In this document: one piece after another, positions 7,923 through 18,611 of the stretch
How positions within the stretch are numbered: position 1 is the first letter of the stretch
How the letters are laid out: the number at the start of each line of letters is the position of its first letter
DNA from: Clostridia bacterium
GTDB taxonomy: Bacteria > Bacillota > Peptococcia > Peptococcales > BICA1-8
Assembly: GCA_030154225.1 (NCBI GenBank)
Contig: JASKKI010000025.1
Coordinates: 1-33,046, forward strand
DNA length: 33,046 nt
Direction: 5' to 3'
Program-made: the position numbers and the translations under genes
Notes under the pieces: model-generated
The model's database searches: none
What the model was told of the DNA's origin: nothing
The model's input: only the letters and a program-made list of their open reading frames with translations

Positions 7923-10337
7923 TTAAAGACCTTTAAAATATCTTTCGATACCTTTAAATATCCCCCAGGCCATTTTGGTACGGAACTGGTCCGTTGCTAA
8001 TAGCCTTTCTTCTTCCGGGTTGCTTAAAAAAGCCATTTCTACTAACACGGAAGGAACTTTAGTCTCTCTAATAACTGCAAAGCTTTCTTCCATTATACCC
8101 AAATCAGTACGACCCCCGGCTTTAACTAGCTCATCCTGGATAGACCAAGCCAATCTTTGCCGTAACCATCTTTGAGAAGATAGCTCACTATGCCAGGTTG
8201 GTGCATAATAATAGACTGATGTACCTGAAATAGCCCGGTTATCATTAGAATTTGAGTGAATACTAACAAAAATATCTGCACCTAAATTATTTGCTATATC
8301 AGCCCTACCTGCCAGGCTTAAATAGGTTCGACCTGTTATATGGGTCATAACTACTTTGGCCCCCTGTTGGGTAAGTAGTTGCTGTAGTTTTAAAGCAACA
8401 TCTAAGTTCACATCCCGTTCCATCACTTTTAGTGTTTTACCAATTGCACCTGGGTCAGTCCACCCCCCTGGTTGAACACTGCCATGCCCGGGATCGATTA
8501 CAATTGTTTTGCCAGCAAGTTTTCCTTGGGCTAATTTTGCACCAACAACAATATAATCATCATGTTGAGTAACTTGATATTGAGCACCAGGCACAAATTC
8601 AGCCTCTACCCTAACTACATCAGGTGAAAGCTGCCTAGAAGTTACCTTACGGATAGGCCCAAAGGCAACATTTTGTTCCGCTTCTGACTTAGAAGCTAAC
8701 TGTAAAGAACTTTGTGACAAATCAATTACTAAACGGTTAGGCGCTGCTTCCTGGGTAGTATAATCAATTTTTTTACCGGCTGCAATCTGCACTACAGCCT
8801 GATTTTCCTGAGGATTTAATTTAATTTGTCTAACAGGTATTAATTGTTCTGCCGGATAAGTTATATCCATCTCTAAAGAACGGGAAGAACTATTATATTT
8901 AAATTGATACTTAAAATCTTTGTCAAAAACAATATTTATAGCTTGTCCTGTTACTTTAATTTCTTTTATTCCCCAGTTATCTAAAGGCTGTACCATTTCC
9001 CTCAGATTAAAAGAATTTAATTCTATCACTAACCTGTATCCATCATTTGCTCGTTTTATCAGGTATTGGTTAGCATTAACCCCTGAAAGAGTTACTGCTA
9101 ATTTATCACCTAAATTATTAAAAGCGAGAACCCTTTCATTATCTAAAGTCAGTTTTAATTCATTAACATATGATTTTGGCTGGGGTAATGGTTTAGAATT
9201 TTTATCAACTGTTAACCAACCGGCGATCCAACCTCGTGTCCCGTTAGGTAACTGGACTTTTAACCATTCTCCTTCTTCAGCCAGTACTTGTAATTCTGTA
9301 CCACCGTTAACTTTAGTAATAGTGGGATACTCCAAACTAGCACCTTGTCTAATATTAACTACATTACCCGTAACTATTACTATCTTAATTGGGACATTAA
9401 TTACAGGTGGTTTTGGCGGAGAAGGGATGTATGTACCTTGATTTTGTTTGGGACTACTTTCAAGAGAAACTAACCAATTGGCAATCCATCCAACTTGCCC
9501 GGAGCTGGTTTTTACTTGATACCAATCCTTTTGTTCGCCAATGATTTCAACAATATCTCCCTCTTTTACCTGAGTAATCCTAGAAGACTGTGTTGTCGGC
9601 TGCTGGCGAACATTTACAATAGAACCAGTAACCAGAGCATTACGTGAAATGTTATCACTACCTGGAAAATTAACAAGCCAAGCGGCAACCCACCCCGAAC
9701 CTTGTGTGGTTTCAATAAGATACCAACCATTTTTTTCATTTTTAATTACTACCTGATCACCTTTATTTAATTGAAATAGCAAAGGATATGTAGTACTTGC
9801 TCCCTGGCGGACATTTACAGCTGAACCATTGATGAAGCCAATCTGCGCACCGGCCACCCTATTAACTTCCACCAGCCAGCTAGCAATCCAGCCTTGTGTT
9901 CCATTAGCCAACTGCGCTAAATACCAGTTACTTTCACTTTTTAGAATTGTGAGTTTTTCACCGGCTTTTACCTGTCCTATTTTCATGTAATTAGTACCGG
10001 GACCTTTTCGGATGTTAACTACACTGCCGGTTACAATGGCTGTCTCTATTTCACCATTCAGGTCATCCATTAACCAACGGGCAATCCAGCCAATCTTACC
10101 ATCTGCTAACCTTACTTTAGCCCAATTATCTTTTTCAGTAATGATTGATACAAACTGGCCTTCTGCTACCTTTGCAATACGAGCATATTGAGTACCAGGT
10201 CCTTTTCTTACGTTAACAATACTCCCGGTTATTTTTCCCACCCTTTCCTGGGCTTGTATATTACCGGGAAAAATCGTACCTAAAAATGCTACAATTAATA
10301 ATATACTAAATACTAAAATTATTTTTCTTTTCCCCAA
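7923..10337 (-). CDS. Secreted N-acetylmuramoyl-L-alanine amidase with five SH3 repeats and AMIN domains
   Basis: This 804-residue cell-wall hydrolase would cleave the bond between N-acetylmuramic acid and L-alanine in peptidoglycan. Residues 1-30 form a signal peptide (basic start, hydrophobic core, cleavage near IQAQE). Five bacterial SH3 repeats follow, each beginning with GS(I/V)VNVR-like text, near 35-95, 99-160, 167-228, 235-296 and 318-380. AMIN-like wall-targeting regions span about 395-490 and 500-610. The Amidase_3 domain occupies about 620-804, with zinc ligands visible in DPGHG, MERDVN and SIHSN and the catalytic Glu in LVEMAFLSN. The start is a TTG; AGGAGG lies 14 bases away and a second AGGA four to five bases away. 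It follows the GerM-domain gene on the same strand but after a terminator, so it probably has its own promoter. Confidence 0.93.
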   Translation of the reverse strand: MGKRKIILVFSILLIVAFLGTIFPGNIQAQERVGKITGSIVNVRKGPGTQYARIAKVAEGQFVSIITEKDNWAKVRLADGKIGWIARWLMDDLNGEIETAIVTGSVVNIRKGPGTNYMKIGQVKAGEKLTILKSESNWYLAQLANGTQGWIASWLVEVNRVAGAQIGFINGSAVNVRQGASTTYPLLFQLNKGDQVVIKNEKNGWYLIETTQGSGWVAAWLVNFPGSDNISRNALVTGSIVNVRQQPTTQSSRITQVKEGDIVEIIGEQKDWYQVKTSSGQVGWIANWLVSLESSPKQNQGTYIPSPPKPPVINVPIKIVIVTGNVVNIRQGASLEYPTITKVNGGTELQVLAEEGEWLKVQLPNGTRGWIAGWLTVDKNSKPLPQPKSYVNELKLTLDNERVLAFNNLGDKLAVTLSGVNANQYLIKRANDGYRLVIELNSFNLREMVQPLDNWGIKEIKVTGQAINIVFDKDFKYQFKYNSSSRSLEMDITYPAEQLIPVRQIKLNPQENQAVVQIAAGKKIDYTTQEAAPNRLVIDLSQSSLQLASKSEAEQNVAFGPIRKVTSRQLSPDVVRVEAEFVPGAQYQVTQHDDYIVVGAKLAQGKLAGKTIVIDPGHGSVQPGGWTDPGAIGKTLKVMERDVNLDVALKLQQLLTQQGAKVVMTHITGRTYLSLAGRADIANNLGADIFVSIHSNSNDNRAISGTSVYYYAPTWHSELSSQRWLRQRLAWSIQDELVKAGGRTDLGIMEESFAVIRETKVPSVLVEMAFLSNPEEERLLATDQFRTKMAWGIFKGIERYFKGL

Positions 10338-16504: not shown

Positions 16505-16933
16505 TTATAATGAATAAATTGTCTCACCACTTAAAACTTGCAAACCAATGGAATTCAAAACTTCAATTGCTTTCTTACTATCCTCTACCCTAAAAATTAC
16601 AATAGCATTATCAGATTTTTTGGCCAGAAAGGCATACATATATTCTATATTTATTTCACTTTCGGCGAGAGGCTCTAAAGTAGCAGCCAGGCCGCCGGGT
16701 GTATCGGGTACCTCAATAGCCAGAACATCAGTTTCACTAACTAAAAACCCGGCATTTTTCAATACCACTAAGGCCTGTTCAGGTTTATTAACAATTAATC
16801 TCAAGATACCAAAATCAGCTGTTTCAGCAATTGATAACGCCCTAATATTGATATTATTTTCACCTAAAATTTTTAATACCCGGCCTAGTCTTCCCTCTTT
16901 ATTTTCCAAGAATATAGAGACCTGTTTAATCAT
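16505..16933 (-). CDS. Small protein with two ACT domains
   Basis: The 142-residue protein consists of two ACT domains (about 1-68 and 70-142), starting IKQVSIFLENKEGRLGRVLK and IEVPDTPGGLAATLEPLAES. ACT domains bind amino acids and related small molecules and regulate metabolic enzymes. No catalytic domain is present. Such tandem-ACT proteins are often found beside phenylacetate-CoA ligase genes; the gene begins 14 bp after paaK, so it is probably made from the same T-box-controlled message and may sense phenylalanine or another aromatic amino acid. Confidence 0.85.
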   Translation of the reverse strand: MIKQVSIFLENKEGRLGRVLKILGENNINIRALSIAETADFGILRLIVNKPEQALVVLKNAGFLVSETDVLAIEVPDTPGGLAATLEPLAESEINIEYMYAFLAKKSDNAIVIFRVEDSKKAIEVLNSIGLQVLSGETIYSL

Positions 16934-16947
16934 TAAAAACCCTCCCC

Positions 16948-18246
16948 TTATATTTTTCTATTATCAATAACCCGTACAGCTTTTCCTTCACTGCGGGGAA
17001 TTGTTTTCGGTTCTACCAATTTAACCTTTGCAGAGATATTTAATACTGCTTCGATCCGGTCATGGATGGTTTTCTCCAGATGTTCCAGGCCACCAATTTT
17101 ATCGGAAAACATATTTTCCGAGACTTCTACTAATATTTTTAGTTCATCCAAATTGCCTATCCGGTCTACTATTAACTGATAATGGGGTTCTGTTTCACCA
17201 ATCTCCAGTAAAACACTTTCTACCTGAGATGGAAAAACATTTACACCCCTGATAATAAGCATATCATCAGTACGTCCGGTAATTCTACCCATGCGGATAT
17301 GGGTTCTGCCACAGGCACAGACCTCGGGATATAAAAAAGATATGTCCCTGGTACGATACCTTATTACCGGAATACCCTCTTTGGTAATAGTAGTAAATAC
17401 CAATTCACCGGGTTGGCCGTAAGGTAATGTTTCCTGGGTCACAGGATCGATAATTTCCGGAATAAAATGGTCTTCAAAAATATGCAAACCATTCTTGCAT
17501 TGACATTCAGAAGCTACTCCAGGCCCAATGATTTCCGAGAGGCCGTAAATATCTATAGCAGAAATACCCAGTTGGTCCTCGATCTCTTTACGCATATTCT
17601 CCGACCAGGGCTCCGCTCCAAAAATACCATACTTTAATTTCAGTTCTCCCGGTTCAATATCCATTTCCTTCATTACTTCCGCTAGATATATTGCATAGGA
17701 AGGTGTACAGGCCAGTACAGTAGTTCCAAAATCCTTCATTAACATTATCTGCCTTTTAGTATTCCCACCGGATATGGGAATAACTGAGGCACCAATGCGT
17801 TCTGCACCATAATGAGCACCTAAACCTCCTGTAAATAATCCATAGCCATAAGCAATCTGAATTACCGAATCTTTTGTTGTTCCTCCACAAGTCAAAGTCC
17901 TGGCCATTAATTCGGACCAAGTATTTAAATCTTTTCTTGTATAACCTACTACTGTGGGCTTTCCGGTAGTACCAGAAGAAGCATGAACTCTTACTATTTC
18001 CGACAAGGGAACTGCAAACATACCATATGGATAATTATCCCGTAAATCTTGTTTGGTAGTAAAAGGTAAGTATCTAAGATCATCTAAACTTTTAATATCA
18101 CCAGGTTCCAGCCCTTTATCCTGAAAGGCATGACGATAAAAGGGGACATTGTAATAAACCCTTTCCACCACTGACTTTAGACGTTCTAATTGTAGTTCCG
18201 CTAATTGAGGACGGGGCATACATTCTGCAGCTGGATTCCAATACAT
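16948..18246 (-). CDS. paaK: Phenylacetate-CoA ligase
   Basis: This AMP-forming ligase activates phenylacetate (or a related aryl acetate) to its CoA thioester with ATP. The 432-residue protein has the ATP-binding loop [14 protein letters not shown] near residue 90, [13 protein letters not shown] near 214, [15 protein letters not shown] near 236 and the C-terminal subdomain start [11 protein letters not shown] near 330. Upstream TTG and ATG codons exist, but only the ATG at 18246 has its GGGAG at a useful distance. In anaerobic Clostridia the enzyme works with 2-oxoacid:ferredoxin oxidoreductases in fermentation of aromatic amino acids, or in the reverse direction to make them from aryl acids. 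It lies behind a T-box leader with a Phe-like specifier. Confidence 0.93.
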
Positions 18247-18261
18247 TTTCATCACTCCCAA

Positions 18262-18575
18262 TTTTTTAATAACTATTTTCCAATTAAAAACCTCCCGCCC
18301 CTAAGTAAGGACGAGAGGTTAACCCGCGGTACCACCTTGATTGGTCAAAATTTTGACCCTCTTTAAGGATACGCAACAAAGTCAAATAATACTTTGTTTT
18401 AATATCCCTCTCCAGATAACGGTGAGAAATTCCGGTCTCACCTACTAAACCCTTTCAGTGAGACAACTCCAGAGGGAACTTCATTCTAACCTTTGTTACC
18501 GGTTTCCAGCATCCCGGTTCTCTGTAAACTCCAGCTAAAACTACTTTCCTCTTTCACAGTTTTTAAGTATATTTA
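18262..18575 (-). promoter_or_regulatory. T-box riboswitch leader, probably phenylalanine-specific
   Basis: The minus-strand leader contains the T-box core AGGTGGTACCGCGGGTT (about 18337-18321), whose CCACC-facing side pairs with uncharged tRNA 3' ends in this class. It is followed by a terminator whose arms are AACCTCTCGTCC and GGGCGGGAGGTT (18320-18286) plus a T tract. Upstream is a stem I with base helix AGAGG/CCTCT, AGTA on the 5' side and GAAGTTC on the 3' side; with the usual single base after GAA the specifier reads TTC (Phe). Uncharged tRNA-Phe would stabilise the antiterminator and allow paaK-ACT expression. The class is certain; the specifier is read by eye. Confidence 0.93.
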
Positions 18576-18581
18576 AATAGA

Positions 18582-18611
18582 AGTATAAAATTAATATTAG
18601 CTATTAGTCAA
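18582..18611 (-). promoter_or_regulatory. Sigma-A promoter of the T-box-paaK transcript
   Basis: TTGACT (18606-18611) and TATACT (18582-18587) are separated by 18 bases on the minus strand. The transcript would start near 18575, just before stem I of the T-box. Confidence 0.7.

Follow-up and report, generated by a model that had tools for sequence, protein, structure and literature searches.

A T-box leader precedes a paaK-like gene and a double-ACT gene

The window analysed in this study, a 33,046-nt stretch of DNA from a member of the Clostridia (assembly GCA_030154225.1, contig JASKKI010000025.1), contains according to Rfam a single T-box leader, which lies on the minus strand at 18566-18304 and comprises Stem I, the Stem II/III region and the antiterminator. 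The match covers the RF00230 model over its full length (1-219 of 219) with 142.8 bits (E 3.6e-32), above the gathering score of 93 bits, and so bears out the T-box that the initial annotation had placed at this site. Just upstream of Stem I, on the same strand, a consensus scan (10/12) identified a promoter-like site of the sigma-70 type, defined by consensus only, with TTGACT at 18611-18606, an 18-nt spacer and TATACT at 18587-18582. The host is an anaerobic spore-forming bacterium.

The 3′ part of the leader can adopt two structures. One is an intrinsic terminator (18289-18320, minus strand) found by folding and scanning, a 14-bp stem followed by a U run, whose folding energy of -21.6 kcal/mol was equalled by none of 200 shuffled sequences. 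The other is the antiterminator AAGG-[UGGUACC]-GCGGG...CUCGU-CCUU (18307-18338, minus strand), which is supported by the Rfam alignment, by covariation in 14 aligned leaders and by the complementarity of its UGGU bulge to the ACCA 3′ end of tRNA-Phe. When the 3′ half of the terminator is removed, the remaining stretch folds into the antiterminator, though no better than shuffled sequences do. The terminator overlaps the 3′ strand of the antiterminator, and the two structures are mutually exclusive, as indicated by the folds, the scan and the pair covariation in the 14 leaders. The analysis thus confirmed that the leader is a canonical transcriptional T-box located before a gene for a paaK-like ligase and a gene for a double-ACT protein.

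The first of these genes (16948-18252, minus strand) encodes an AMP-forming ligase of the aryl-acetate-CoA ligase type. Its start codon is more likely the ATG at 18252, which follows the ribosome-binding stretch GGGAGTG, or the ATG at 18246, than the TTG at 18261 given in the ORF list. The protein carries both domains of PaaK-type AMP-forming ligases (PF00501 and PF14535) and is strongly similar (436-467 bits) to solved phenylacetate-CoA ligases (PDB relatives 2y4o, 2y27 and 4r1l). It matches TIGR02155 end to end with 606.9 bits, below the curated cut-off of 646.3; for this reason, we call it PaaK-like only, claim no membership of the PaaK equivalog and consider its substrate uncertain. The second gene (16505-16933, minus strand) encodes a double-ACT-domain protein that matches the ACT_8 'ACT domain pair' family end to end (PF19571, 110 bits versus a gathering score of 23.5; PDB 2f06, 107 bits). 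A PGGL motif is conserved across 92 paaK-linked ACT proteins. In most loci paaK is followed by the ACT gene, whether a T-box is present or not, so that this gene goes with PaaK and is not a feature of the T-box arrangement. The suggestion that this protein provides a second check on the amino acid is plausible, but such a check would not be specific to the T-box loci.

The specifier codon is UUC

The covariance-model alignment that the initial annotation had called for to fix the specifier places UUC (Phe) at 18478-18476 of the minus strand, within the loop GAA-G-UUC-C. In order to calibrate the register internally, we used the T-boxes of the same genome, which number 20. When the codon is read as the triplet separated from the 3′ stem by a single base, 14 other T-boxes of the genome yield their cognate amino acid unambiguously. 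The reads, with gene names taken from the translated starts by reading and not from a family search, are leuA CUC, trpS UGG, leuS CUC, ileS AUC, thrS ACC, tyrS UAC, valS GUA, glyQS GGC, cysE-cysS UGC, trpE UGG, alaS GCC, pheST UUC and metG AUG, together with UAC (Tyr) in the second box of a symporter leader, whose cognate is less certain. Thus, the pheST leader of this genome carries the same codon as the leader of the window, and the alaS specifier GCC has, like the UUC of the window, a C as next base. The genome encodes two identical copies of tRNA-Phe with anticodon GAA and 3′ end ACCA, the former fitting the specifier UUC and the latter the UGGU bulge.

Could a shift of register make this a leader for a different amino acid, such as Val (GUU) or Ser (UCC)? 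The loop GAAGUUCC can be read in neighbouring registers, and the two Ser-type leaders of the genome have a specifier loop that is one base longer (e.g. L008). Against this, the register was calibrated on 14 cognate leaders, GAAGUUC is kept in 14 aligned leaders while the next base may be A, C, G or U and the flanking stem covaries, and UGGU calls for A as the discriminator, in contrast to the UGGC of the Ser-type leaders. We consider a different amino acid extremely improbable. The Phe specifier proposed from the letters alone is upheld by the covariance alignment, by the register of the 14 leaders and by the tRNA, and the non-aromatic specifier named at that time as grounds for rejection is not what the leader reads.

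The Phe T-box is recurrent among paaK loci of Bacillota

Two sets of relatives' paaK loci were surveyed, one of 80 loci and another of 60 genomes. In 13 other genomes, paaK is immediately preceded by a T-box (loci L023, L034, L043, L045, L048, L049, L055, L056, L065, L078, L131, L151 and L157; L146 and L147, as duplicates of L048 and L045, respectively, were not counted), which makes 14 with that of the window and agrees with the placement upstream of the paaK-ACT pair that had been described. Twelve of the 13 leaders score above the Rfam gathering score, the exception being L045 (82.1 bits, E 1.1e-16), and all 14 T-box-paaK genomes have GAAGUUC in the specifier loop. We aligned 13 of the 14 paaK leaders, leaving out L045, together with the genome's own symporter leader. 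In this alignment GAAGUUC is invariant and the next base variable. Covariation is seen in both antiterminator helices and in the stem beneath the specifier, with 97.8% of cells paired. The covariation score was 0.467, compared with 0.256 for shuffles, a comparison that kinship inflates, and at most 0.200 for slid controls, which retain the relatedness.

Among 70 Bacillota paaK loci for which 450 nt or more of upstream sequence was available, a set picked by PaaK similarity that does not amount to a census, 14 have the T-box. Mapped on a PaaK tree with 68 rows from Bacillota, the presence or absence of the T-box changes seven times (6-7 in the bootstrap; at least four changes are forced by supported branches), which implies that the T-box was gained or lost repeatedly, always with a Phe codon. 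At L168, from a different family of the order, the arrangement rex-arsR-yitT-[T-box]-paaK-ACT-lgt matches the neighbourhood found in the window. Rfam detected no T-box at 20 other relatives' paaK loci, many of them with yitT and lgt neighbours, so that the absence at those loci is no artefact of the pattern search.

The leader of the window also has relatives within its own genome. A Phe-type and a Tyr-type T-box stand in tandem before one sodium/solute symporter gene (L001 1501-1752, G000:C40:12120-12371, and L006 1501-1752, G000:C40:12681-12932), and the leader is 87% identical to the former and 76% to the latter. At L034, a Phe-type leader heads paaK-ACT followed by a different sodium/solute symporter (30% identical). 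As a guess, the cargo of the symporter might be an aromatic amino acid or an aryl-acetate.

Pathway context in this genome and in its relatives

In relatives, the paaK-ACT pair is repeatedly found with genes for indolepyruvate-type ferredoxin oxidoreductase (IOR) and for aromatic amino acid synthesis. The iorA gene is near the pair in 14 relatives' loci, and iorAB precedes it in Clostridia such as Acetivibrio, Pseudobacteroides and Caldicoprobacter. A hisC-type aminotransferase gene follows it in 19 loci, one of which (L023) is under a Phe T-box; the L023 enzyme, the one tested, scores above the TIGR01141 cut-off. In six Bacteroidota loci the pair is followed by pheA and in one Desulfamplus genome by aroF and pheA, while some Desulfobacterota loci adjoin enoyl-CoA hydratase genes or Liv-type ABC transporters. 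Regarding T-boxes on the IOR side, none was found upstream of iorA by pattern in ten paaK-linked ior operons or by Rfam in seven of them, and the surroundings of IorA in the T-box-paaK genomes likewise showed no T-box core.

A strong IorA match is present in eight of ten T-box-paaK genomes, the two others being draft genomes, and prephenate dehydratase (PheA) in nine of ten. The genome of the window has pheA, clustered with DAHP synthase-, tyrA-, aroA- and aroE-like genes (all but pheA named from translations). Its top-scoring IorA match reaches 641.4, slightly short of the cut-off of 650.9, and has an IorB-like neighbour. This pair is unlinked to paaK and has no detected T-box; it sits in a long, same-strand cluster (L115, G000:C89:946-15112) in which, by reading the translations, we recognised a glycolate-oxidase-like FAD protein, a 4-hydroxybutyryl-CoA dehydratase-like protein, an acyl-CoA dehydrogenase and Etf subunits. 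The cluster looks catabolic and is possibly a fermentation island. As for degradation of aromatic compounds, two catabolic markers were searched, the aerobic ring-oxygenase subunit PaaA and benzoyl-CoA reductase C, and neither had a match in the genome; other anaerobic aryl-acetate routes may be present.

Discussion

T-boxes turn genes on when their amino acid runs short. The reading that we regard as probable is that the locus supports a Phe-starvation-induced salvage of aryl-acetates by activation, reductive carboxylation and transamination, of which we infer the response in vivo, the substrate, the direction and the function of the ACT protein. Once Phe becomes short, the GAA anticodon of uncharged tRNA-Phe would pair with the UUC specifier, and the UGGU bulge with the ACCA end of the tRNA; the antiterminator, whose structure is seen in the leader, would then form, and paaK and the ACT gene would be transcribed. 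PaaK would convert phenylacetate or related aryl-acetates to aryl-acetyl-CoA, an IOR encoded elsewhere would reductively carboxylate this to the aryl-pyruvate, and an aminotransferase step would yield Phe. Such salvage would supplement the chorismate-prephenate pathway that the genome also encodes. Judging by the conserved gene pair and the fold, the double-ACT protein is most likely a modulator of PaaK with an aromatic amino acid as its ligand.

The anabolic direction assumed in the initial annotation is favoured by the T-box logic, by the relatives' neighbours (iorAB, the hisC-type aminotransferase, pheA and aroF) and by the two marker searches that gave no match, and falls short of proof in that the IOR-like pair is unlinked, lacks a detected T-box and belongs to a catabolic-looking cluster. 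Several observations count against salvage. The IOR-like pair is sub-cut-off and lies amid acyl-CoA dehydrogenase and Etf genes, two of the ten T-box-paaK genomes have no strong IorA and just 14 of the 70 loci carry the T-box. Also, the occurrence of PheA in this genome and in nine of the ten implies that salvage is not needed for prototrophy. The ligase score below the curated value and the Phe-to-phenylacetate direction reported for the IOR of Bacteroides thetaiotaomicron (cited in PMC13285125) weigh on the same side.

One may ask whether the Phe-specific T-box instead drives breakdown or scavenging, with Phe starvation acting as a signal of general amino-acid depletion and with aryl-acetates, or other aryl or acyl acids, being activated as carbon and energy source through the acyl-CoA dehydrogenase/Etf machinery. 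The surroundings of the IOR-like pair, the enoyl-CoA hydratase and Liv-type transporter genes beside some Desulfobacterota loci and the report that the IOR of Bacteroides thetaiotaomicron acts from Phe to phenylacetate (cited in PMC13285125) would all suit such a role. However, the other T-boxes of the genome are found on genes for tRNA ligases, biosynthesis or transport and on a few enzymes compatible with biosynthesis, neither PaaA nor benzoyl-CoA reductase C has a match, and the neighbours in relatives include the biosynthetic pheA, hisC and aroF; we therefore consider this reading as a whole unlikely. The score below the TIGR02155 cut-off raises the further question of whether PaaK is a misnomer, the ligase taking a different aryl or acyl acid whose product feeds another Phe-linked need, such as a cell-envelope or cofactor precursor. 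Here the similarity to solved phenylacetate-CoA ligases and the recurrent linkage to iorAB, a family acting on aryl-pyruvates (PMC13285125), point the other way, which leaves a different substrate only a slim chance. With regard to aryl-acetate salvage, the presence of the same switch in 13 related genomes suggests that the enzyme helps to make Phe rather than to degrade it.

How does this locus compare with known systems? The leader itself is a textbook T-box, sharing with the Phe-type T-boxes of pheST and of aromatic amino-acid transporters the full consensus, the Stem I specifier loop, the T-box sequence, the antiterminator/terminator switch and the discriminator match. The novelty lies in its target, here an aryl-acetate-CoA ligase together with a double-ACT protein. 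The main text of two T-box surveys (PMC2494555, PMC3766115) names no ligase/double-ACT target, and a text search of the open literature found no paper linking a T-box with this ligase, although a listing in the supplementary tables of the surveys is possible. An anabolic role for ligase and IOR has already been proposed. In Bacteroides, the ligase adjoining IOR was assayed as an aryl-acetate-CoA ligase and a biosynthetic role was suggested by analogy with methanogens (2026; PMC13285125), and Phe synthesis from phenylacetate is cited for rumen cultures (PMC7356843). The enzyme families are the same here, and in some Bacillota and Bacteroidota relatives iorAB is beside or near paaK-ACT; the genome of the window differs in having an unlinked IOR-like pair, a ligase under a Phe-sensing RNA and, in addition, the prephenate branch. 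From the PaaK of aerobic phenylacetate catabolism (TIGR02155), with which it shares the AMP-forming ligase fold and an end-to-end match, the ligase differs in its sub-cut-off score, in the lack of a PaaA match in the genome and in the Phe-sensing leader in front. The PaaK of that pathway is not known to have such a leader.

Routine annotation assigns genes named paaK to phenylacetate degradation. The conserved Phe T-box provides regulatory evidence for amino-acid synthesis by the paaK-ACT pair in many anaerobes, offers a means to pick likely anabolic copies among paaK genes and makes the aryl-acid route testable in Clostridia. More tentatively, with somewhat less than an even chance of being right in all its parts, we propose that Clostridia possess a second Phe route induced by Phe starvation, in which the Phe T-box would control the ligase, phenylacetate would be reductively carboxylated to phenylpyruvate, the double-ACT protein would exert feedback on the ligase and the T-box would have been recruited several times independently.

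Additional observations on T-boxes of the same genome

In what follows, genes were named by reading the translations for L008, L011 and L007. The two Ser-type T-boxes (UCC, UGGC) precede a FAD-binding glycolate-oxidase-like protein (L008, G000:C91:44537-44760) and a serine-glyoxylate-type aminotransferase with a serA-like gene (L011, G000:C6:23505-23727), suggesting that serine synthesis is tied to glycolate/glyoxylate. Another T-box (L007 1501-1722, G000:C27:70463-70684), with the apparent Ala specifier GCC, stands before an Lrp/AsnC-type regulator and an aminotransferase. The hisS leader (L014, G000:C14:9509-9716) has overlapping AAC/CAC in its specifier loop and is possibly a two-codon T-box.

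In the leuS leader (L005; leader 8591-8957), Stem III and the antiterminator are separated by an entire tRNA-Ala (GGC) gene (L005 1744-1816, G000:C90:8834-8906, plus strand) that has a TATAAT box just before it. A blastn search found no second close copy of this tRNA in the genome. At the same site, the leuS leaders of two genomes of the same family (G013 and G014) have a short hairpin without tRNA. Processing of the tRNA-Ala would split the leuS leader in two.
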